From NCBI RefSeq assembly GCF_029688865.1, contig NZ_JARUKV010000007.1:1-64000 (forward strand): a stretch of DNA of 64,000 nucleotides, read 5' to 3'. This document shows, piece after piece, positions 10,060-45,169 of this stretch (positions within the stretch are counted from its first letter, which is position 1; the number at the start of each line of letters is the position of its first letter). This stretch comes from Natronococcus sp. A-GB7 (GTDB lineage: Archaea; Halobacteriota; Halobacteria; Halobacteriales; Natrialbaceae). The notes under the pieces are model-generated. The model ran no database searches. It was given only the letters and a program-made list of their open reading frames with translations, and was not told the DNA's origin. Position numbers and translations under genes: made by a program.

Positions 10060-10521
10060 ATGAGCGACACCTCGTGGACGGACCGGATCGTCGGCGAACG
10101 GATGACCGTCGATCAGGAGTTCTCCGCGCGCGTCCAGGACTCGCGGTTCTCGAGCCAGCAGTGGAGCCTGATCATGACCGCGACGGAGTTCGAGATCGAG
10201 GACGCCGACGACCCCGGTCGGGCCCGGATCGTCGCCAACACCGAGAAGGTCGACCAGATCATCCCCGAACTCGAGAACGTCGAACGACAGATGGGCGCGA
10301 TGGGCGGCCAGGGTGGCGGTGGTGGCGCCTCGAACTCGTCGGGCGGGGTCGTCGACTCCATCCTCGGCGCGCTCGGACTGGGCGGGGACGGTAGCGACGA
10401 CCGGGAGGAACAGCTCCGGGCGGCCGAGCAGCTCACCCAGGAGTACGCCGAGCAGCTCCAGAACCAGCTCGAGTCGAAGGGGCGATGGGAGTCGGTCCGC
10501 CAGGCCGCCGCCGGCGACTGA
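10060..10521 (+). CDS. Haloarchaeal protein of unknown function (DUF5799-like)
   Basis: 153 residues from ATG 10060. The N-terminal half (ERMTVDQEFSARVQDSRFSS, QQWSLIMTATEFEIE) is followed by a Gly-rich linker near residues 85-100 and a Gln/Glu-rich C-terminal helix. The pattern agrees with what I remember of the haloarchaeal DUF5799. There is no signal peptide or membrane segment. It follows the carbonic anhydrase gene in the same direction by about 70 bases. Confidence 0.75.
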   Translation: MSDTSWTDRIVGERMTVDQEFSARVQDSRFSSQQWSLIMTATEFEIEDADDPGRARIVANTEKVDQIIPELENVERQMGAMGGQGGGGGASNSSGGVVDSILGALGLGGDGSDDREEQLRAAEQLTQEYAEQLQNQLESKGRWESVRQAAAGD

Positions 10522-10547
10522 GACTGCCGGCGATCCGTCCCGTTCTC

Positions 10548-10688
10548 TCAGCCCGCGTGAAAGAGGGTGAACTCGCTGGCTTCGTAGATGTTGATCAGCT
10601 CCACGACGAGTTCGTCGTAGGACTCGTCCTCGATCCGCAGCCCGTCCAGCCGTTCGACGGTCTCCTCCTCGAGTTCGATAGTGGGCAT
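10548..10688 (-). CDS. Small VapB/antitoxin-like protein (DUF7557-like)
   Basis: 46 residues, read from ATG 10688 to TGA 10548-10550. The sequence MPTIELEEETVERLDGLR followed by ESYDELVVELINIYE has the short strand-helix pattern of ribbon-helix-helix antitoxin-like proteins widespread in haloarchaea. No toxin gene is adjacent, so it is an orphan. It converges on the DUF5799-like gene. Confidence 0.7.
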   Translation of the reverse strand: MPTIELEEETVERLDGLRIEDESYDELVVELINIYEASEFTLFHAG

Positions 10689-10800
10689 ACCAGTCCGTTC
10701 GTCGCCGAGGAGCAAAAGCCTCGCGGAGAGCTATCACACCACATTACTCGGGCACCGCCGAGCCACAGGGTCTTTAGGTAGCCCACCCCTCCGTCTGGGT

Positions 10801-11091
10801 ATGACCGACGACGTCGACACGACCACGATCACGATTTCGACCGACGGCGACGAGACCGACGAGGTCACGCTCCCGTCCGGACTCATCGACCTCCTCGCCG
10901 AGGGCGATCAGGACGCCGCCGAAACCGTCGGCGACATCACCCTCCTCTCGTTCGCCAGCCGCGCCCACCATATCGTCCACCACGGCGAGGGGTCGGACCC
11001 GGAGCTCGAGGCCCAGGAGGAACGCATCATGGACCAGTTCGAGGAGCGGTTCGGGCAGACCTTCGCCGAGGCGACCGGCCACCAGCACTGA
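10801..11091 (+). CDS. Conserved haloarchaeal protein of unknown function
   Basis: 96 residues, very acidic. The N-terminus is Thr/Asp-rich (TTTITISTDGDETDEVTLPS). A helical part contains HHIVHHGEG and ends ATGHQH, so the C-terminal half is unusually rich in histidine for so short a protein and could bind metal. That is inference. The start at ATG 10801 was preferred to an upstream in-frame ATG because the extension is basic and looks non-coding. Confidence 0.7.
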   Translation: MTDDVDTTTITISTDGDETDEVTLPSGLIDLLAEGDQDAAETVGDITLLSFASRAHHIVHHGEGSDPELEAQEERIMDQFEERFGQTFAEATGHQH

Positions 11092-11188
11092 CCGACGATT
11101 CCTCCTTCCGGTGTGACCGTCTCGGCAGCTACGGCTGGCGTGGTTCGTGAACCGAAGTTTTGATCACGGTTTACGGCGGTGGTGACGT

Positions 11189-11770
11189 ATGGCAACCGAA
11201 CAGAACGACGTCGAGCTCGTCGACGGCGACGTCGTCCACGCGTTCGCTCGAGCGGCGCTGCTCGCGACGCTTCTCGGCGCGGTGGCACCGATCGCAATAC
11301 CGATCCCGTTCTCTCCGGCGCCGATCACGCTGCAGGTGCTGTTCGTCTTTCTCGCCGGGCTGTTGCTCGGTCCGCTCTGGGGGACCGTCTCGATACTACT
11401 GTACCTCGCCGCCGGCGCGATCGGACTCCCGGTGTTCGCGGGGATGGCTGGCGGGCTCGGCGTGCTCGTCGGGGATTCGGCCGGCTACCTCTGGTCGTAC
11501 CCCCTGGCCGCCTGCCTGATCGGTCTGTTCGTCCACCGCGGGACCGACCTGCGTGATCCCGCCGAGATTTCGACGGCGCTGGTCGTCGTCGCGCTCGTCA
11601 CCGCGACCGTCCTCATCTACGGAATGGGCGTGGGCTACATGGCCTGGCTGCTCGAGCTCGAGCTCTGGGAGGCGATCACCGTCGGTGCCTTATGGTTCGT
11701 TCCGGGTGAGCTGCTGAAGATCGCTGCCGCCGTCGCGATCGTCGAGAGCGGTCGGATCGACACCGTCTGA
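11189..11770 (+). CDS. bioY: Biotin transporter substrate-binding component BioY
   Basis: 193 residues, about six transmembrane helices. It is the S component of an energy-coupling-factor transporter that binds biotin in the membrane. Diagnostic stretches are FSPAPITLQVLFVFLAGLLL, LYLAAGAIGLPVFAGMAGG and GYLWSYPLAACLIG. It is the first gene of bioY-bioM-bioN; its stop overlaps the next start as TGATG, indicating translational coupling. Confidence 0.95.
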   Translation: MATEQNDVELVDGDVVHAFARAALLATLLGAVAPIAIPIPFSPAPITLQVLFVFLAGLLLGPLWGTVSILLYLAAGAIGLPVFAGMAGGLGVLVGDSAGYLWSYPLAACLIGLFVHRGTDLRDPAEISTALVVVALVTATVLIYGMGVGYMAWLLELELWEAITVGALWFVPGELLKIAAAVAIVESGRIDTV

Positions 11771-12498
11771 TGCTCGAGTTCCGCTCCGTGTCGTTCGGTT
11801 TCGACGACGTAGGGGTGCTCGATAGCGTCTCCCTCTCGATCCCCGACGGCGAGTTCGTCGTCTTCGCGGGAGCGAACGGCAGCGGGAAGACGACCTTGCT
11901 GCGCCACTGCAACGGCCTGCTGGATCCCGACGAGGGGACGGTGCTGGTCGACGGCACCCCCGTCGAGGACGACGTCATCGGCGCCCGAACGAGCGTCGGC
12001 ATGGTGTTCCAGCACCCGCGCGACCAGTTCGTCGCCGCGACCGTCGGCGACGACGTCGCCTTCGGCCCCGCGAACCTGGGCCTCGAGCGCACCGAAATCG
12101 ACCGCCGCGTCGCGGAGGCCCTCGAGGCCGTGAACCTGCGGGGACGCGAGGACGAACGGATCGAACGGCTCTCGGGCGGCGAGCAGTCCCGCGTCGCTAT
12201 CGCGGGCGCGCTCGCGATGGAGCCGACCCACCTGGTGCTCGACGAACCCTTCACCGGGCTCGACGAGCCCGCGCGCCGCTCGGTGATGGATCGACTCGAG
12301 GCGCTGGCCGCCGACGGCACCGGGATCCTGCTCGCGACCCACGACCTGCGGGACGTGCTCGCGCTGGCCGACCGCGTGATCGCGATGGCCGACGGACGGG
12401 TCGTCGTCGACGACTCCCCCGAGCGGGCCCTCGAGGGACTGGACGGACTGCCCGTTCGCGTCCCTCGAGCGCGGGCGGATCTCGAGGAGCAATGCTGA
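11770..12498 (+). CDS. bioM: Biotin ECF transporter ATPase (BioM/EcfA)
   Basis: 242 residues. ABC ATPase with Walker A GANGSGKTTLLRH, Q-loop FQHPRDQF, signature LSGGEQSRVAIAGAL and Walker B HLVLDEPF, then the H-loop ATHDL. It drives biotin uptake with BioY and BioN. It overlaps bioY by one base and bioN by seven, so the three are one transcriptional unit. Confidence 0.94.
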   Translation: MLEFRSVSFGFDDVGVLDSVSLSIPDGEFVVFAGANGSGKTTLLRHCNGLLDPDEGTVLVDGTPVEDDVIGARTSVGMVFQHPRDQFVAATVGDDVAFGPANLGLERTEIDRRVAEALEAVNLRGREDERIERLSGGEQSRVAIAGALAMEPTHLVLDEPFTGLDEPARRSVMDRLEALAADGTGILLATHDLRDVLALADRVIAMADGRVVVDDSPERALEGLDGLPVRVPRARADLEEQC

Positions 12499-13196
12499 CC
12501 TACGAGCCCGGCGAGACGGTCGTCCACGACCTCGATCCCCGGAGCAAGCTCGCGGTCCAGATCGGGTTCGCGGCGACCGCGCTGGCTCACACCGCGCCGC
12601 GGGCCCTGCTCGGGCTCTCGGTCGTTACCGCGGTCGTGCTGGCGCTCGCGCGGGTACCCCTACTGCGGACGCTGTACGCCTACCGGTTCGCGCTGGTGAT
12701 CCTCGCGGTCGGTCCCCTCGTCGCTGCCGCGACCCTCGGCCCGCCGTGGATCGACCTCGAGGCCGGCCTCGCCACGGCGCTCGCGAGCTACCGGGTGCTG
12801 CTCATCCTGCTCGTCAGCGCCGCCTACGTCCGGACGACGCCGGTTCGAGAGTCCCGGGCGGCGATCCAGCGGACGATCCCGGGCAAGCCCGGACAGCTCC
12901 TCGGGATCGGCGTCGCGCTGGTCTTCCGGTTCCTGCCCGTCGTGCAGTCGGACCTGCGGACGATTCGGGACGCGTCGGCCGCGCGGCTCGGCACCGAACG
13001 GAGCGCCCGCGAGCGCGCGACGACGATCGGCCTCCTCGGGCTCTCGCGAACGTTCGACCGCGCCGATCGACTCTCGCTCGCGCTGCGAGCGCGGTGTTTC
13101 TCCTGGAATCCCACGCTGCCCGCGCTCGCGTTCTCCCGGCGGGACGCTCCCGTGTTGGGGATCGCGGTCGCGTTGCTCCTGACGGCGTTCCTGTAA
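12492..13196 (+). CDS. bioN: Biotin ECF transporter transmembrane coupling protein (BioN/EcfT)
   Basis: 234 residues. EcfT-type membrane protein linking the S component to the ATPase. The N-terminus YEPGETVVHDLDPRSKLAVQ is typical. The coupling-helix region contains DASAARLG and FDRADRLSLALRARCF, the latter with the Ala-Arg-Xaa signature of EcfT proteins. There are about four to five transmembrane helices. It closes the bioYMN operon. Confidence 0.93.
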   Translation: MLTYEPGETVVHDLDPRSKLAVQIGFAATALAHTAPRALLGLSVVTAVVLALARVPLLRTLYAYRFALVILAVGPLVAAATLGPPWIDLEAGLATALASYRVLLILLVSAAYVRTTPVRESRAAIQRTIPGKPGQLLGIGVALVFRFLPVVQSDLRTIRDASAARLGTERSARERATTIGLLGLSRTFDRADRLSLALRARCFSWNPTLPALAFSRRDAPVLGIAVALLLTAFL

Positions 13197-36282: not shown

Positions 36283-37296
36283 CTACTCGTCGTCTCGGTC
36301 TCGTTCGCGCTCGGCCCGCGTAATCTGCTCGAGCCGGCGGCGCTGTTCGCGGTGCAGCGTCACCAGCATGTCCGAAAGCACGCCGAACATGAGCAGCTGC
36401 ACCCCGAGCAGGATCGCGGCCGCCGAGACGACCGCCAGGATCTCGTGGCCCTGCTGGTACTGGATCCATTGCCAGAGGACGTACATCGCGACGACGCCGC
36501 CGGAGGCGATGCTCGCCGAACCGAGGCTCCCGAAATAAAACAGCGGGTTGTTGGTCTTCGCCAGCGAGTACAGCGCCAGTACGATCGTTCCACCGTCCCT
36601 GAGGGGGTGGAGGTTCGTCTCCGAGGCCTCCGGGCGGGCGCTGTAACTGACCGGGACGACCGTCGTGTCGACCCCGTGTTTGACACACTCGACGGCGAGT
36701 TCGGTCTCGATCGTGAACCCGTCCGAGTCGAGTGAGAGGCGTTCGAACGACTCGGTCGTAAACGCCCGGTAGCCCGAGAGGATGTCCTCGTACTCGGCGC
36801 CGTGGATCAGCCGGAACGAGCGGTTGATCAGTCTGTTTCCGAACCCGTTCAGCGCCTTCATCGCGTCGTCGTCCATATCCGCAAACCGGTTCCCGATAAC
36901 GTGTTCGTACCCCCGCGAGAGCGGCTCGAGCATCCGTTCGGCGTCGGCCGGGTCGTACGTGCCGTCGCCGTCGACCATCAACACGTACGGGACGGTGACG
37001 TACTCGAGGGTCTCCCTGACGGCCTGGCCCTTCCCGTCGCCGGCCTGGGTGAACACCTGGGCGCCTCGCTCGCGCGCGATCTCCCGGGTGTCGTCGTCGG
37101 AGTCGCCGTCGACGACGACGACGTTCGAGTACCCCTGTTCGCGGAAGCCGTCGATCACCCCGCCGATCGTCGCCGCCTCGTTCAGCGTCGGGATGAGGAT
37201 ACAGACCTCGTCGGTCGAAATATCGCGCGTCCGCTCGCTCATCGACAGGAACGCCTCCCGCTCGAGCGTCGACGCGCGGACCCCGTCATGCTCCAT
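36283..37296 (-). CDS. aglJ: Dolichyl-phosphate hexosyltransferase AglJ (GT2)
   Basis: 337 residues. Adds the first sugar to dolichol phosphate in S-layer N-glycan assembly. The GT2 domain includes ILIPTLNEAATIGGVIDGF, VVVDGDSDDDT, and the DxD region LMVDGDGTYDPADAER. The later segment EYEDILSGYRAFTTESFERL is typical of the AglJ/DPM1 type. Two C-terminal transmembrane helices (about 245-270 and 280-300) anchor it. ATG 37296 lies about 34 bases after an ATATATTTTT box; an alternative start is ATG 37242. Confidence 0.9.
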   Translation of the reverse strand: MEHDGVRASTLEREAFLSMSERTRDISTDEVCILIPTLNEAATIGGVIDGFREQGYSNVVVVDGDSDDDTREIARERGAQVFTQAGDGKGQAVRETLEYVTVPYVLMVDGDGTYDPADAERMLEPLSRGYEHVIGNRFADMDDDAMKALNGFGNRLINRSFRLIHGAEYEDILSGYRAFTTESFERLSLDSDGFTIETELAVECVKHGVDTTVVPVSYSARPEASETNLHPLRDGGTIVLALYSLAKTNNPLFYFGSLGSASIASGGVVAMYVLWQWIQYQQGHEILAVVSAAAILLGVQLLMFGVLSDMLVTLHREQRRRLEQITRAERERDRDDE

Positions 37297-37361: not shown

Positions 37362-38741
37362 CTACGATTCCACTATGGAGACGAGATGCTGGCGCATCCG
37401 TCCGTCGATCGGGATGTTCGCACACCGCTCGTCGAGACCGATCGTCTGGAGCAGGAGACTCGAGTCGTCGAGCAGGGAGAGTTGGAGGTAGGTGCCCTCG
37501 CGGTAACCGTCGCTGGTTCTGGTCATGTTGATGATCTTCAGCGTCTCGTACTCCCGGAGCTGGTCGGTGATGCGTTTCTTGCCGAGGACGTTGGCGTCGA
37601 TCGCCTCGGCGAACGCGCGGTAGACGCGGTACATCTCGGTGGCCTTGAACGCCGAGCGCTCGGAGAACTCGTCCATCGTCGCCAGCGCCGCGATCGCGAT
37701 CTTCGCCTGCGTGGGACAGCCCCTGATGAGATCCTGGATCCGGGTCACCTCGGCGTCGTCGTTGGCGACCCGGACGTGGCTCTCCGTGACCTGGGCGGCG
37801 TCGTTGTCCCTGGCGACCTCGCCGGCGAGCCGGAAGAGGTCGATCGCCCGGCGGGCGTCGCCGTGTTCCTGGGCCGAAAAGGCCGAACACAGCGGGATGA
37901 CGTCGTCGGTGAGCACGTCCTCGCGGTAGGCGTCGCGGCGGCGCTCGAGGATGTCGCCGAGCTGGTTGGCGTCGTACGCCGGGAAGACGATCTCGTCGGG
38001 CGAGAAGGAACTCTCGACGCGGGTGTCGAGTCGGTCGCCGTACTTCAGGTCGTTGCTGATCCCGATCACCGTAATACTCGCCTCGACGTCGTTCTCCTCG
38101 CCCGCCCGCGAGAGTTGCATGAGGAGCTTGCTGTCGTCGGCCTCCTCGGGCGGGACGTTCTCGACGTCGTCGGGCGGTGCGAGTCGGTCGATCTCGTCTA
38201 AGACGACGATGATCGCGTCGTACAGTTCGTCGATGACCGACCAGAGCCGATCGTAGTACGCCCCCGTCGCGATCCCGGAGTGGGGAATCGTGATCCCCGT
38301 CTTCTCGGGTTCGTTCAGGCTCTTCGCGAGGTGGATGACGGTCTGGACCTCAGAGCGACGCTGAGCGCAGTCGATCACCGCCCGACCGATCCGGACGTCG
38401 TTCTCGAGGCCGCGGCCGACGACCTCCCGACTGACGTAGCGGGTAACGAGGGTCTTCCCCGAACCCGATTTCCCGAGCAGGAGCGTCCCCTTGCCCGTTC
38501 CGCCGGTGATCGTCGGCTTGAGCCGTCGGGCGACGGTCTCGATCTGGTTGTTCCGGCCGACGATCTTGTTCTGGTCGGGGACGTGGTCGATCCGCAGCAG
38601 GTCCTCGTTCGCGAAGATCCGGTCTTCCTCGTCTAACACCGAGAGCGGATCGTCGCGAGACTTGGAGCGAGAGTGGGCGACCGCGCCGTGCTCGGCGGCG
38701 TACTCGCCGAGCGTCCCCGTCCCCTCCGCGTGCAAAGGCAT
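37362..38741 (-). CDS. orc1: Orc1/Cdc6-type replication initiator
   Basis: 459 residues. AAA+ origin-binding ATPase. Walker A is LLLGKSGSGKTLVTRY, Walker B IIVVLDEIDRLAPP, sensor VIGISNDLKYGDRLDTRVES, and the C-terminal winged helix starts near residue 330 (KIAIAALATMDEFSERSAFK). The first origin-box repeat begins one base upstream of the ATG, so the initiator may control its own transcription. It and the repeat field upstream form a chromosomal origin. Confidence 0.95.
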   Translation of the reverse strand: MPLHAEGTGTLGEYAAEHGAVAHSRSKSRDDPLSVLDEEDRIFANEDLLRIDHVPDQNKIVGRNNQIETVARRLKPTITGGTGKGTLLLGKSGSGKTLVTRYVSREVVGRGLENDVRIGRAVIDCAQRRSEVQTVIHLAKSLNEPEKTGITIPHSGIATGAYYDRLWSVIDELYDAIIVVLDEIDRLAPPDDVENVPPEEADDSKLLMQLSRAGEENDVEASITVIGISNDLKYGDRLDTRVESSFSPDEIVFPAYDANQLGDILERRRDAYREDVLTDDVIPLCSAFSAQEHGDARRAIDLFRLAGEVARDNDAAQVTESHVRVANDDAEVTRIQDLIRGCPTQAKIAIAALATMDEFSERSAFKATEMYRVYRAFAEAIDANVLGKKRITDQLREYETLKIINMTRTSDGYREGTYLQLSLLDDSSLLLQTIGLDERCANIPIDGRMRQHLVSIVES

Positions 38742-39665: not shown

Positions 39666-40397
39666 CTACTCCAGGATCGGTGCCTCGGCTTCTCGCACGC
39701 GCCGTTCGGCTTCCTCCCGGTCTTCGGGGTAGCCGACGTCGATCCGCCAGCCGTCCATTCGGATCGCGTCGATCGTCCGTCCCGACTGGATGAGGAGATC
39801 GATCGCATCGGGCAGTTCGTACTCCCCGCGGTCGGAGGGCTGGACGAGGTGGCAGGCGTGGAAGATCGCGGGCGTGAACGTGTAGAAGCCGGTCATCACG
39901 AGGTTCGATGGCGGCTCGTCGGGTTTCTCGACGACCTCGACGATCTCGCCGTACTCGTTGGTGTCGAGCACGCCGTATCGGGAGGCCTCCTCGTAGGGAA
40001 CCTCCTCGACGAGAAAGGCCGCGTCCGCGCGCTCCTCGTGCTGGCGTTTGATCACGTCTCCGAGGTTCCCCCGGAAGACGTTGTCGCCGAGCATGAGCAC
40101 GAAGTCGTCGTCGACGTGGGGCTCGGCCTGGAGTATCGCGTGAGCGAGCCCGAGCTGTTCGCGCTGGTGGGCGTAGGTGATCGGGACGCCCTCGTAGGCG
40201 TCGCCGTAGCGCTCGATGAGCTGCTCTTTCTGGTAGCCGACGACGACGACGAGTTCGGTGACGCCGATCCCGAGCAGGTTGTCGAAGACGTCCTCGACGA
40301 GCGGCTTTCCGTCGACCTCGACGAGGGCCTTGGGTTTGTCTTCGGTGAGCGGCCGGAGGCGAGTTCCCTCACCGGCGGCCAGCACGACTGCTTGCAT
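39666..40397 (-). CDS. aglF: Sugar-1-phosphate nucleotidyltransferase (AglF-like UTP-glucose-1-phosphate uridylyltransferase)
   Basis: 243 residues from ATG 40397, the same length I remember for Haloferax AglF. It supplies UDP-glucose for S-layer glycan synthesis. N-terminal AAGEGTRLRPLTEDKPKALV is the pyrophosphorylase signature; FVLMLGDNVFRGN gives the metal-binding Asp and EVVEKPDEP the substrate site. The C-terminal WRIDVGYPEDREEAER is typical. dTDP-glucose synthesis is the alternative. It is separated from aglJ by orc1 and the origin. Confidence 0.85.
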   Translation of the reverse strand: MQAVVLAAGEGTRLRPLTEDKPKALVEVDGKPLVEDVFDNLLGIGVTELVVVVGYQKEQLIERYGDAYEGVPITYAHQREQLGLAHAILQAEPHVDDDFVLMLGDNVFRGNLGDVIKRQHEERADAAFLVEEVPYEEASRYGVLDTNEYGEIVEVVEKPDEPPSNLVMTGFYTFTPAIFHACHLVQPSDRGEYELPDAIDLLIQSGRTIDAIRMDGWRIDVGYPEDREEAERRVREAEAPILE

Positions 40398-40509: not shown

Positions 40510-41502
40510 CTACTCCGACACGCGCGAGAGATCATCCGTGACCGCGCGGAGATCGGGGTGGTCCGCGAACTCCCGGTACTCCGCCGGAAGCTCCTCGAGG
40601 GAGTCCGCCGCCGCGAAGCGCTCGCGGACCGTCGCCCACCGTTCGTGGCGGACGACGACGACGGGCACCGCCTCGAGACCGAGCAGCCTGGCGATCGATA
40701 GCCGGTGTTTGCCCGCGCTGAATCGGATGATCTCACCGTCCCGGCCGATCCCGACGCGCATCTCGTGGGGGAACTCGCCTCCCAGGATCGACTTCATCGC
40801 GGCGCCGCCGGTCTCCATCCCGTCGTCCGCGCGCTCGAGGAGTTCGTCCTGGGGAACGTGCCCCTCCCCGGCCATCGACTCGTAGAGGGCGTCGAGGTCG
40901 GCACACCGCCGCTCGAGCTCCTCGGGCGTCGACGACCGCCAGTCCTCGAGCCCGTTCTCGATCTTGCAGGCCGCGTACCGGTACTTGGCGGTCGCCTCCC
41001 AAGATTCGCCGTCTCGGAACCGGGCCTCGAGCGAGCGGTGAATCCGGGTCTCGATCCACTCGGTTCGAAACCGGTCCCAGCGGCCGCCGACGACCCCGAC
41101 GATCGGTTCGGCGTGTACCGGCGAGCGTGTCGTATCGCCGTCCTTCGTCGGAAACTGGGCTTTCCCGAACCGCGACTGGTAGCGAAGATCGGCCGGATCG
41201 ATCTCGACGACCGTCGGGAGATCCGACGACGTCGGTTCGCCGGCTGCGCTCCGGTGACGGATCGCCCACCAGTAGCCCAACGCGTTCTCGTGCAGGTATC
41301 CGCGGGTTCGGCCGAGAGCCCCAGTAACTCCCGAGAGCTGGTAGAACACGAGCAGCTTCCGCCACGACGAGGTCAGGGCCGCAAGAACGAGAAGCTGATA
41401 CCCGGCGTCGGGTTCGTCGAGCGTGGCGGCGACCCCGGATCGGTCGAGTGCGTCGAACACGATCGAGCCCGTTACGAACCCCTCTGCAACGACGGCGTTC
41501 AC
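40510..41502 (-). CDS. ParB-like-fold protein, paralog 1 of 3
   Basis: 330 residues, probably from GTG 41502. N-terminal half is helical (LLVLAALTSSWRKLLVFYQL). Then VEIDPADLRYQSRF, the segment HRSLEARFRDGESWEAT, LDALYESMAGEGHVPQDELL, and the C-terminal block VGIGRDGEIIRFSAGKHRLS then IARLLGLEAVPVVVV. The GKHRL-IA-LLGL-VPV pattern recalls the ParB/sulfiredoxin nucleotide-binding fold. It shares all these blocks with the genes at 41562 and 42546. The function is unknown; context points to surface glycan synthesis. Confidence 0.75.
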   Translation of the reverse strand: MNAVVAEGFVTGSIVFDALDRSGVAATLDEPDAGYQLLVLAALTSSWRKLLVFYQLSGVTGALGRTRGYLHENALGYWWAIRHRSAAGEPTSSDLPTVVEIDPADLRYQSRFGKAQFPTKDGDTTRSPVHAEPIVGVVGGRWDRFRTEWIETRIHRSLEARFRDGESWEATAKYRYAACKIENGLEDWRSSTPEELERRCADLDALYESMAGEGHVPQDELLERADDGMETGGAAMKSILGGEFPHEMRVGIGRDGEIIRFSAGKHRLSIARLLGLEAVPVVVVRHERWATVRERFAAADSLEELPAEYREFADHPDLRAVTDDLSRVSE

Positions 41503-41561
41503 GTTGGATCCAGTGATTTAACGTGGGGGCAGAGTTACTAATACGTGAGGGAATCGGTAGA

Positions 41562-42491
41562 GTGAATCTCGTCCACAGATCTCGACGAATACTCCGCGAA
41601 GACGGCGTTCTATCTCTGCTGTGGCGATCGGTACGGTTCGTCTGGACGACGACCGTCTGGCGGCGGGAACTCGTCCAGTGGCTCCCCGCGAGCGCGGTCG
41701 CCCTGGCGTTCGCCGTCCGGAGTCGGCTCCTTCCCCACGTGAGCGACGCGAACCCGACTCGGCCGATCCGGGTCGATCCCGACGAGATCGAGTACTACCA
41801 CGGCAGCGACGATCCCTGGCGGCTCGGCCACGTCATCGACAGCGACTGGGACGACCCCGAGGGACGGTTCGAGGAGACGGCCGTCTACCGGTCGCTCGAG
41901 GCCCGGTTCCTCGAGGGCGACGACTGGGCGGAGACCGAACTCTACGCCGAGTACCGCGACCGACTCGAGGACGGCGATCCGTACTGGCGGTGTACGACGG
42001 AGGCGGAGCTCGAGGCCTACTTCGAACGGATCGACGACCTCTACGAGTCGATGGCCGAGGAGGGGTACCGCTCCCAGCGGGCGCTGCTGGCCGACGACGA
42101 CGCCGACCCCCGCGAGGAGAACACCGACGCGGTCCATCCGGTGGTCCAGGAGATCGGCGTCAACGTCTATCGGGACGGCGAACTGGTCAAGAAGGGCGCC
42201 GGCTTCCATCGGCTGGCGATCGCGAAGCTGCTCGATCTCGAGGAGATTCCGGTGACCGTGCGGGTCAGACACGCCGACTGGCAGGCGGTCAGAAACGAAA
42301 TTCGCGCGGCCTCGAGTCGCGCCGAACTGAGCGAGCGAGCCGAGTCCCACCTCGACCACCCAGATCTCCGGGACGTCGTCCCCGAGCGCTGGCGACAGTC
42401 GCAGCCCGAACTGACGGCGGACGCGGAACACGAGGCGTCGGGGGCCGACGGCTCCGAGGACGACGACGACGTTCCAGTCCCACAGCGGTAG
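41562..42491 (+). CDS. ParB-like-fold protein, paralog 2 of 3
   Basis: 309 residues from GTG 41562; a GTG 13 codons upstream is possible. A hydrophobic stretch near residues 38-55 (WLPASAVALAFAVRSRLL) may touch the membrane. Then IRVDPDEIEYYHGSDDPW, YRSLEARFLEGDDWAETELY, DDLYESMAEEGYRSQRALL, and VYRDGELVKKGAGFHRLAIA with KLLDLEEIPVTVRVRH. The tail is acidic. Divergent from paralog 1 with only about 60 bases between the starts. Confidence 0.75.
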   Translation: MNLVHRSRRILREDGVLSLLWRSVRFVWTTTVWRRELVQWLPASAVALAFAVRSRLLPHVSDANPTRPIRVDPDEIEYYHGSDDPWRLGHVIDSDWDDPEGRFEETAVYRSLEARFLEGDDWAETELYAEYRDRLEDGDPYWRCTTEAELEAYFERIDDLYESMAEEGYRSQRALLADDDADPREENTDAVHPVVQEIGVNVYRDGELVKKGAGFHRLAIAKLLDLEEIPVTVRVRHADWQAVRNEIRAASSRAELSERAESHLDHPDLRDVVPERWRQSQPELTADAEHEASGADGSEDDDDVPVPQR

Positions 42492-42545
42492 CCGACGCGG
42501 GCCGAGCCAGCACGGTTAACTACCGCTGTCCGGAACCCCTCGGAC

Positions 42546-43262
42546 GTGTCCTATCTCCTCGAGCGAGTGAAAGAAACCTGGCGACGAGACGGCGCTCGCG
42601 CGGTCGCCGACGAGACGGTCGCCCACCTCCGGTGGCGTCTCGAGGGCTCCGCGGCGTACGGCGCGGTCCGGACCCGCGAGCTCGAGCTTCGGGACCGTCA
42701 CGTCGACGCCGATCCGCTGGAGCTGACGTGGGTCGACCCCGCCGAGATCGAGTACGTCGTCGGCGAGCTGGTTCCCGACGAGAGCGCCGACTCCCACTTC
42801 GAACGCCCGAACGTCCCGAGCCAGGGGCGAGACGGAATCGGCGCCGTCCGTGGGGGCGAGTGGGACCGACCGACGGTTCCGTTCACCGAACTCTCGGAGT
42901 ACCGCCTCTTCGAGGAGCGCTTTCTCGAGGGCGTCCCCTGGACGGAGACCGAGTTCGTCGACCGTCACCGTCGCTCGCCCGACTCCGACTGGAGCGAGCG
43001 GAAGCTGTTGCACAAGCTCGAGCGCTTCGACGACCTCTACGAGACGATCGCGACGGAGGGGTATACGACTCAGCGCGAACTCGGCGGCCACCCGCTGAAC
43101 GAGATCATCGTCTACGCTGGACGGGACGGCGAACTCCGGTGGCACGAGAACGGCCGCCACCGGCTGGCGATCGCGAAGCTGCTCGACCTCGAGGCGGTGC
43201 CCGTACTGATCACGGTCCGTCACCGCAAACTGCTCTTTCCGGGCGAGCGCTCGCCGCCGTAG
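42546..43262 (+). CDS. ParB-like-fold protein, paralog 3 of 3
   Basis: 238 residues from GTG 42546, 54 bases after paralog 2 and likely cotranscribed. It is the shortest copy, lacking the long N-terminal helices. Shared blocks are LTWVDPAEIEYVVGELVP, GAVRGGEWD, YRLFEERFLEGVPWTETEFV, DDLYETIATEGYTTQREL, and RDGELRWHENGRHRLAIAKL then LDLEAVPVLITVRH. It ends at the RH motif with little tail. Convergent with a GT2 glycosyltransferase. Confidence 0.77.
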   Translation: MSYLLERVKETWRRDGARAVADETVAHLRWRLEGSAAYGAVRTRELELRDRHVDADPLELTWVDPAEIEYVVGELVPDESADSHFERPNVPSQGRDGIGAVRGGEWDRPTVPFTELSEYRLFEERFLEGVPWTETEFVDRHRRSPDSDWSERKLLHKLERFDDLYETIATEGYTTQRELGGHPLNEIIVYAGRDGELRWHENGRHRLAIAKLLDLEAVPVLITVRHRKLLFPGERSPP

Positions 43263-43282: not shown

Positions 43283-44200
43283 TTAGCCGAGCCGATTCGC
43301 ACACAGCGCGAGCCGGCTCTTCGCCTCGAGGAGGATCAGCAACGCCCCACAGCCGACGCTGGCCGCCCAGTAGTAGAGGGTATAGCGCGCGTTTCCGGGA
43401 TCGATCGCCAGTGCGTGCCTGAGGTAGGCGGCTGCCGGCTCCCGTCGCCCGTTCTCGGCGTAGATGATCGCGACGTTGGCCGCAAACTCGGCGCGTCGAC
43501 GCCGGCCGACGTGTTCTCCGTGTCGCTCGAGCACCCGCCGGTAGCCCTCGAGCTTCCGGTCGGGATCGGTTCCGATCCGCTCGCCGTCGGTGTGGCGGTC
43601 CAGGAGTACCTCGGGGACGCCCTTGATCTCGGCGCCCTCGTCGGCCGCCAGCAGACGGAGGTAGAACTCGTAGTCCTGGACGGCCGGCAGCTCCTCGTCG
43701 AGGGGACCGACGTCGTCGAACGCCGACGCGCGAAAGGTCGTCGCCGAGAAGCTCCCGACGGGGTTGCCCCGCCCGAGGTCCTCGAGGGTCACCCGCTTCT
43801 GCGCCCGAATCACGTCGTAGACCGCGCCGTCACGGCGCTTCCGGTAGGAGGTGTAGACGCCGCGAACCTGCTCGGGACCCTCCCGAAAGCTCTCGAGGAC
43901 GCGCTCGAGGTGGGTCGGCGCCAGCTCGTCGTCGGAGTCCAGAAAGGAGACGAACTCGCCGGTCGCCCGTTCGATCCCGCGGTTCCGGGCGGCGTTCGCC
44001 CCGCCGTTCGTCCCGGTCTCGAGGACCACCAGCCGATCGTCGTCGTACGAGCCGAGGACCGCGTCGGTCCCGTCGGTCGAGCCGTCGTCGACGACGATCA
44101 CCTCGAGGTCGTCGCAGGTCTGTGCAAGCGCGCTGTCGATCGCCCGACCGACGACCGACGCGCGGTTGTACGTCGGGATGACGATGCTGACCGCAGGCAT
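43283..44200 (-). CDS. GT2 glycosyltransferase with C-terminal TPR-like helices
   Basis: 305 residues. GT-A domain: VSIVIPTYNRASVVGRAIDS, IVVDDGSTDGT, and the DxD-like FVSFLDSDDELAPTHLE; the acceptor side has LPAVQDYEFYLRLLAADEGA. Residues 230-275 form a TPR-like helix pair (NVAIIYAENGRREPAAAYLR, then HALAIDPGN), followed by a probable membrane helix (YWAASVGCGALLILLEA). A surface-glycan role is inferred from motif and neighbours. Confidence 0.9.
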   Translation of the reverse strand: MPAVSIVIPTYNRASVVGRAIDSALAQTCDDLEVIVVDDGSTDGTDAVLGSYDDDRLVVLETGTNGGANAARNRGIERATGEFVSFLDSDDELAPTHLERVLESFREGPEQVRGVYTSYRKRRDGAVYDVIRAQKRVTLEDLGRGNPVGSFSATTFRASAFDDVGPLDEELPAVQDYEFYLRLLAADEGAEIKGVPEVLLDRHTDGERIGTDPDRKLEGYRRVLERHGEHVGRRRRAEFAANVAIIYAENGRREPAAAYLRHALAIDPGNARYTLYYWAASVGCGALLILLEAKSRLALCANRLG

Positions 44201-44272: not shown

Positions 44273-45169
44273 ATGACGACCGTCTCGATCATCACGCCCG
44301 TCTACAACGACTTCCCGGGACTCCGCGAGACGGTCGACTCGCTCGCGGACCTCTCGACCGAGATCGACTGGGAGTTCGTCGCCGTCGACAACGGCTCGAC
44401 CGACGGCACGTACGACCGCGCCGAGCGCTACGTCGCGGATCGACTCGAGGGCACCGTCCTGTGCGAGGACGGGATCCAGTCCTCCTACGCCGCCCGCAAC
44501 GCCGGCGTGCGACACAGCGACGGCGACGTCCTCGCGTTCGTCGACGCCGATATGACCGTTCCCGAGGGGTGGCTCGAGGACGCCCTCGACGCCTTCCGTG
44601 TCGCGGAGGCCGACTACATGGGCTGTGCCGTCGAACTCGAGGTTCCCGGTGACCCCTCGCTCGCGGCCCGCTACGACCACCACTCCGGCTTCCCGGTCGG
44701 CCACTACCTCGAGGGCCAGCGCTTCGCGCCGACGTGCTGTCTGTTCGTCCGTCGCGAGGTCTTCGCCGACGTCGGCCTCTTCGATCACCGACTGACCTCC
44801 GGGGGCGACAAGGAGTTCGGCAATCGGGTCGACCGGGCGGGGTACGACCTGCACTTCGCCGCCGACGTCACCATGCACCATCCCGTCCGGGGCTCGCTCG
44901 GCGCGCTCGTCCGGAAAGACCTCCGCGTCGGCCGGGGGCTCTGTCAGCTCCAGCGCCACCATCCGAATCGGTACGGGACGCCCGGGATCCCGCCCCGTCC
45001 TTCCGGCGTCAAACAGCCGGACCCGGATCTCGAGCGGCGAGATCGCCTCCTTTTCGGCGCGCTCGAGACCGCGCTGACGGGCGTTCGCGGTGTCGGCTAC
45101 TACCGCGAGTACCTCGCCGGGAAGCGAGGGGGGAAGCCGACCGGATCGATTCCCTCGCTCGCGGAGTAG
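44273..45169 (+). CDS. GT2 glycosyltransferase
   Basis: 298 residues. VSIITPVYNDFPGLRETVDS, VAVDNGSTDGTYDRAER, and the metal-binding VLAFVDADMTVPEGWLEDAL identify GT-A family 2. The acceptor region has LTSGGDKEFGNRVDRAGYDL. No membrane helix is obvious. Divergent from the preceding GT2 gene with about 70 bases between starts. Confidence 0.92.
   Translation: MTTVSIITPVYNDFPGLRETVDSLADLSTEIDWEFVAVDNGSTDGTYDRAERYVADRLEGTVLCEDGIQSSYAARNAGVRHSDGDVLAFVDADMTVPEGWLEDALDAFRVAEADYMGCAVELEVPGDPSLAARYDHHSGFPVGHYLEGQRFAPTCCLFVRREVFADVGLFDHRLTSGGDKEFGNRVDRAGYDLHFAADVTMHHPVRGSLGALVRKDLRVGRGLCQLQRHHPNRYGTPGIPPRPSGVKQPDPDLERRDRLLFGALETALTGVRGVGYYREYLAGKRGGKPTGSIPSLAE

Follow-up and report, generated by a model that had tools for sequence, protein, structure and literature searches.

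Three adjacent paralogous genes of a haloarchaeal glycan locus, termed A, B and C here, may belong to a hitherto undescribed subfamily of archaeal proteins with the ParB/sulfiredoxin (Srx) fold, which lies near SbnI, SerK and the CBS-SerK-like proteins and takes part in building surface glycans, be it N-glycans, the S-layer or exopolysaccharide. We put the probability of this reading at about 0.5. The family is neither named nor described in Pfam or NCBIfam, and it is present in about a third of the haloarchaeal genomes, with as many as 12 copies per genome, and is linked to AglB, AglF, flippases and glycosyltransferases. If the reading is true, the ParB fold, which is known from chromosomes and serine kinases, was recruited into surface-glycan biology, and the family would supply candidates for the genes behind those decorations of archaeal N-glycans and exopolysaccharides that lack an explanation. 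It would then be, to our knowledge, the first family of the ParB fold with a demonstrated part in glycan synthesis, and we found no ParB-like proteins in glycan clusters in the open-licence literature.

The window, which is the whole stretch of 64,000 nucleotides of Natronococcus sp. A-GB7 that was analysed, contains the three open reading frames that a sequence-only reading had placed at 40510-43262, all at the coordinates and on the strands given in Table 1. A is divergent from B and C, the starts of A and B being about 20 bases apart, and C follows B in the same direction after about 55 bases. The start of B is uncertain, as the frame is open in orthologues from start sites lying up to 39 bases downstream, and the true start of B may lie about that much further on. 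C is truncated, ending shortly past the VRH motif. The shared blocks that had been claimed for the three proteins hold in their order, but as a consensus only, since the letters differ. Thus the first block is IDPADLRY in A, VDPDEIEY in B and VDPAEIEY in C, the GxVxGxWD-type block is GVVGGRWD, GHVIDSDWD and GAVRGGEWD, respectively, and the following block is RSLEARFRDGESWEAT, RSLEARFLEGDDWAET and RLFEERFLEGVPWTET; the next block listed is GKHRLSIARLLGLEAVPVVVVRH, and the GxxR motif of A is GKHR. The claimed paralogy was borne out on searching the genome with B, which gave A with E = 7e-32 and C with E = 9e-19, and the similarity of the three, judged from their sequences, is far beyond chance. 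The search gave 12 places in all, namely A, B, C and nine more.

The trio has orthologues in Natronococcus (L014, L015) and in a MAG of the Natrialbaceae (L013), relatives that by themselves would point to a host in the Natrialbaceae, probably a Natronococcus-like one; those of A include copies in L013 and L015. The dN/dS values against orthologues are 0.34-0.39 for A, 0.21-0.24 for B and 0.15-0.18 for C, and therefore A, B and C are real genes, each under purifying selection. In Natronococcus sp. A-GB1 (L014 6887-7942) the A orthologue appears to be frameshifted in its C-terminal third with loss of the GxHR block, which could be a sequencing error. The trio is indeed flanked by an AglF-type gene on one side and two glycosyltransferase genes on the other. 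Genes of the same GT2 type as that at 36283-37296 are found again in aglB-type clusters with family members. No parA was found beside the window genes, the neighbours being AglF, GT2, MFS and Cdc6 genes. An Orc1/Cdc6-type gene (37362-38741) also lies within the glycan locus, with a GT2 gene on one side and the AglF gene on the other.

Table 1. Genes of the locus (window positions) and sequence features of paralogue B (residue positions)
Feature	Position	Strand	Description
GT2 glycosyltransferase	36283-37296	minus	C-terminal hydrophobic segments; PF00535, E 1e-19
AglF-type sugar-1-phosphate nucleotidyltransferase	about 39666-40397	minus	PF00483, E 4e-45
Paralogue A	40510-41502	minus	330 aa, ParB/Srx-fold family member
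Paralogue B	41523-42491	plus	322 aa, ParB/Srx-fold family member
Paralogue C	42546-43262	plus	238 aa, ParB/Srx-fold family member
GT2 glycosyltransferase	43283-44200	minus	PF00535, E 4e-36
GT2 glycosyltransferase	44273-45169	plus	PF00535, E 9e-25
B, N-terminal basic helical arm	about residues 1-77		
B, beta1 VDP	residues 84-86		
B, GxWD in inserted region	residues 107-110		SDWD in B
B, LYESM..GY helix	residues 173-182		
B, RDG	residues 217-219		
B, GxHR P-motif	residues 227-230		
B, VRH	residues 248-250		
B, HPDL	residues 279-282		

Scans of A, B and C against Pfam, NCBIfam, PHROGs and PADLOC gave no significant family. A GYF_2 match was rejected as chance. The ParB matches in PHROGs are weak (E 0.0075 or worse) yet fall on the right block. 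With a profile of 19 members, the family was found in 70 of 194 genomes of the haloarchaeal class and in 35 of 65 genera, each such genome giving between 1 and 12 matches; a few members lie outside the class, elsewhere in the phylum (G378, G403, G231). Among the positions that at least 90% of 82 members keep (B numbering) are W109, D110, W135, T138, G181, R217, G219, G227, R230, R249, H250, W253, H279 and P280; W109 and H250 are invariant, W253 is nearly so, and D110 is kept in 96%. The tree assigns A, B and C to three different parts of the family, each together with its own orthologues, the deep nodes being weak. Recent local triplication was rejected on this ground, and the trio looks, from the tree, to be assembled from old subfamilies and not by fresh tandem duplication. 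Adjacent pairs of members recur in several genera, some of the listed pairs being halves of broken genes (L203). The patchiness and the adjacent pairs may be said to resemble the diversification of glycosyltransferases in surface-antigen islands. Split or truncated copies (L203 1106-1868 with 11390-12761; L200 10714-11498) are as expected of genes decaying in variable islands.

The resemblance to ParB/sulfiredoxin folds proposed by the sequence-only reading, which had called for a structure search, was recovered in the predicted structures. AlphaFold models made from the family alignment have a mean pLDDT of 87.9 (pTM 0.80) for B and 84.8 for C, and in Foldseek searches of the PDB they retrieve almost only ParB/Srx-fold structures, with Noc, Srx, KorB, ParB, PadC and SbnI at the top and unrelated proteins confined to the weakest rows; SerK structures are among the matches of the C model only. 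The E-values are weak (best 0.008 for C and 0.07 for B, none reaching 0.001), probably due to an insertion of about 80 residues that splits the ParB core after the VDP strand and before the LYESI helix. The Noc match has a probability of 0.99 for the C model, and SbnI superposes with an rmsd of 2.6-2.9 A over 63-79 columns. As the two paralogues agree and the match list is uniform, the assignment of the predicted models to the ParB/Srx nucleotide-binding fold is firm, the weak E-values notwithstanding. It may be noted that PF02195 (ParB_N) matched none of the 19 members scanned at E<=1 and nothing in the genome, and that neither an HTH nor a ParB C-terminal dimerization domain was found in any family scan of the members.

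The P-motif GxxR (Box II) is well kept, G227 in 81 and R230 in all of the 82 members. The arginine of this motif is needed for NTP binding, its mutation abolishing binding in the ParB-fold proteins tested, and the identity of the nucleotide is not predictable from sequence in such proteins (PMC12704722). By eye, the LYESI..GY helix lies where ParB has the helix that precedes the GxxR block, and it may be the counterpart of the base-contacting helix and loop of the Box I C-motif. Nucleotide binding by the family is likely.

Among named families SbnI and SerK are the closest, in line with the free serine kinase folds suggested earlier, and sequence comparison gives evidence for this that is separate from the models. 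The NCBIfam SbnI model, the best-matching named family, matches 5 of the 82 members (best E 2.5e-4), and SerK matches one (0.007). In a PDB sequence search SbnI was the sole ParB-fold match (E 0.2), and a match to the hydrolase 5b49 was rejected as chance. SbnI, the staphylococcal free serine kinase (PDB 5uje/5ujd/6nr6), shares with the family the core fold and the GxHR P-motif with the helix and strand after it. The archaeal family adds the insertion of about 80 residues with GxWD between beta1 and the LYESI helix, an N-terminal arm and a C-terminal HPDL tail; its context is glycan as opposed to siderophore, and the serine-kinase catalytic residues are not identifiable in it. The family profile also picks up CBS-SerK-like proteins, known from haloarchaea and other Halobacteriota, in many genomes (hhalign probability 93, E 3e-7), where the alignment covers the C-terminal block only, from RDG...GxHR to a shared HP motif, and the family lacks their CBS domains. 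Archaeal SerK (TK0378, PDB 5x0b) is an ADP-dependent serine kinase of cysteine and serine metabolism (PMC5120207). Only 26 of 79 members have the Asp of its DGHHR motif, A, B and C not among them, and no family residue could be matched to its catalytic Glu30, the place of that loop being taken by the GxWD-bearing insertion. The CTPase domains of ParB, Noc and KorB have the core fold and the GxxR motif in common with the family but differ in their HTH and C-terminal dimerization domains, PF02195 match and ParA partner. Srx shares the core fold (TM-score 0.28-0.51 for C, normalised to Srx), but the catalytic Cys of its GCHR motif is present in 1 of 79 members and no peroxiredoxin context was seen. 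With no Srx cysteine, alignable SerK catalytic loop or ParB DNA-binding domain, the family is set apart as a new subfamily.

For the glycan context, about 19 kb was fetched around each of 60 family members along with 36 control stretches at arbitrary positions of the same genomes, and core glycan genes were scored by tblastn with labelled haloarchaeal glycan proteins as queries. At least one such gene was present in 41 of 60 family neighbourhoods against 3 of 36 controls (OR 24, Fisher p = 3.7e-9), where 41 is a lower bound, as L093 (flippase) and L095 (Capsule_synth) were missed by tblastn and are glycan by Pfam, a recheck made on the family side only with the controls scored by tblastn alone. 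AglB was present in 10 of 60 and in none of the 36. The family loci are best-scoring matches, several of them from the same genus, and orthologous loci of related species are non-independent; also the controls come from main contigs, whereas many family loci are on accessory replicons or islands. These limits are partly answered by counting de novo neighbour clusters by genus, where out of 38 genera a Wzx-type flippase is the commonest (19), followed by GT4 (17), GT2 (17), epimerase (13), AglF-type (10) and AglB (7) genes. Five further paralogue loci of the genome itself were examined (C5, C25 twice, C56 and C9), and all are in glycan clusters, each with a flippase-type gene and most with glycosyltransferases; the twelfth place (C22) is a weak match. 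In plasmid records of Halobaculum the gene order is conserved and includes flippase, GT, GNAT, deacetylase and epimerase genes. Outside the haloarchaea, a member (L198) has a PF04464 glycerophosphotransferase-like gene on one side and PF02719, DegT and cytidylyltransferase genes on the other, which resembles the layout for pseudaminic-acid synthesis, the pathway name being our reading of these genes. The linkage is not universal, as members outside glycan loci include L067 (near hydrogenase genes), L112, L114 and L117-L119, of which L112 and L114 adjoin a gene read by eye as srp54. Neither of the two outcomes that would have counted against the sequence-only reading, an unrelated predicted structure or neighbourhoods elsewhere devoid of glycan genes, was seen; glycan genes are strongly enriched around the family in other genomes, and from this linkage a role in surface-glycan synthesis is very likely.

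In the mechanism that we propose, the core domain would bind a nucleotide through the GxxR P-motif, while the lineage-specific insertion with GxWD, together with H250 and W253, would form a pocket for a glycan-pathway substrate. The basic, non-transmembrane N-terminal helical arm would dock on the anionic membrane, the site where polyprenol-linked glycans are built, and phosphoryl transfer or another NTP-dependent modification of a sugar or lipid-linked glycan would follow, the neighbouring glycosyltransferases specifying which. We infer the docking; in 78 of 82 members the N-terminus is more basic than the rest of the protein, a property that 63% of control genes show, and transmembrane anchoring was rejected in favour of peripheral docking as only 2% of N-termini pass the 19-residue hydropathy cut-off. 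Phosphotransfer is a guess guided by the kinship with SerK and SbnI, and a doubtful one. The kinases or nucleotide-dependent modifiers suggested by the sequence-only reading likewise stay a conjecture, as the SerK catalytic loop could not be located in the family. As tentative as phosphotransfer is the wider proposal that ParB/SerK-fold enzymes, in many divergent copies per genome, act on sugars or on glycans linked to polyprenol, phosphorylating them or modifying them in some other NTP-dependent way, in the N-glycosylation and exopolysaccharide pathways of archaea.

The main rival is that the proteins are ParB-fold pseudo-enzymes that bind a nucleotide or nucleotide-sugar without catalysis and gate a glycosyltransferase, a flippase or the cluster's transcription. 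A recent survey established the ParB fold as a versatile module for NTP binding; its proteins can act as switches, and many bind CTP, ATP or GTP with no catalysis known for them (PMC12704722). Polysaccharide and cell wall go unmentioned in the main text of this survey, whose domain counts are built on PF02195, a model that does not pick up the present family. The unconserved SerK and Srx catalytic signatures would suit such a switch and the recurrent adjacent paralogues could be heterodimers, but no HTH or ParB dimerization domain was found in the family scans, and the conservation of W109, H250 and D110 in lineage-specific parts suggests a substrate pocket; on balance we consider the switch rather unlikely. 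Less probable again is a glycan-active enzyme of different chemistry built on a ParB-like scaffold, such as a transferase for a nucleotide-activated sugar or a non-phosphoryl group, with GxxR holding the donor pyrophosphate. P-motifs generally bind phosphates, the family clusters consistently with NDP-sugar and cytidylyltransferase genes, and its copy number varies as in glycosyltransferases; against this, its closest relatives are kinases, and we know of no ParB/Srx-fold member with nucleotide-sugar or non-phosphoryl transferase chemistry.

It is very improbable that the genes are passengers with a mobile-element, DNA-maintenance or defence function that share glycan islands because both are hypervariable. 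The patchy distribution and broken copies would fit, as would members near mobile elements (L022, L119) and a TnpB/IS605-type gene (10469-11740) between the B and A orthologues of a same-genus genome (L061 8740-12898). But the clusters with AglB, AglF and flippase genes span many genera, the Halobaculum gene order repeats, A, B and C are under purifying selection, and there are neither viral relatives in phage records or viral contigs (a single weak phage match has E 0.04) nor meaningful defence-family matches in the PADLOC scan. That they are canonical ParB-type segregation or DNA-binding proteins with no tie to glycans has a negligible chance, for the fold is ParB-like but PF02195 and HTH matches are absent, the neighbours in the window are glycan genes and not parA, and the family has glycan neighbourhoods elsewhere too.

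Some other genes were seen in the neighbourhoods. A small P-loop (AAA_33-type) ATPase/kinase-like gene (L063 9020-9823) adjoins or is near several family members, and an AAA family ATPase is annotated near members in L016 and L017. Also, a DUF7475 gene (L087 8773-9180) is found near members in six genera, being directly adjacent in 5 of the 6.
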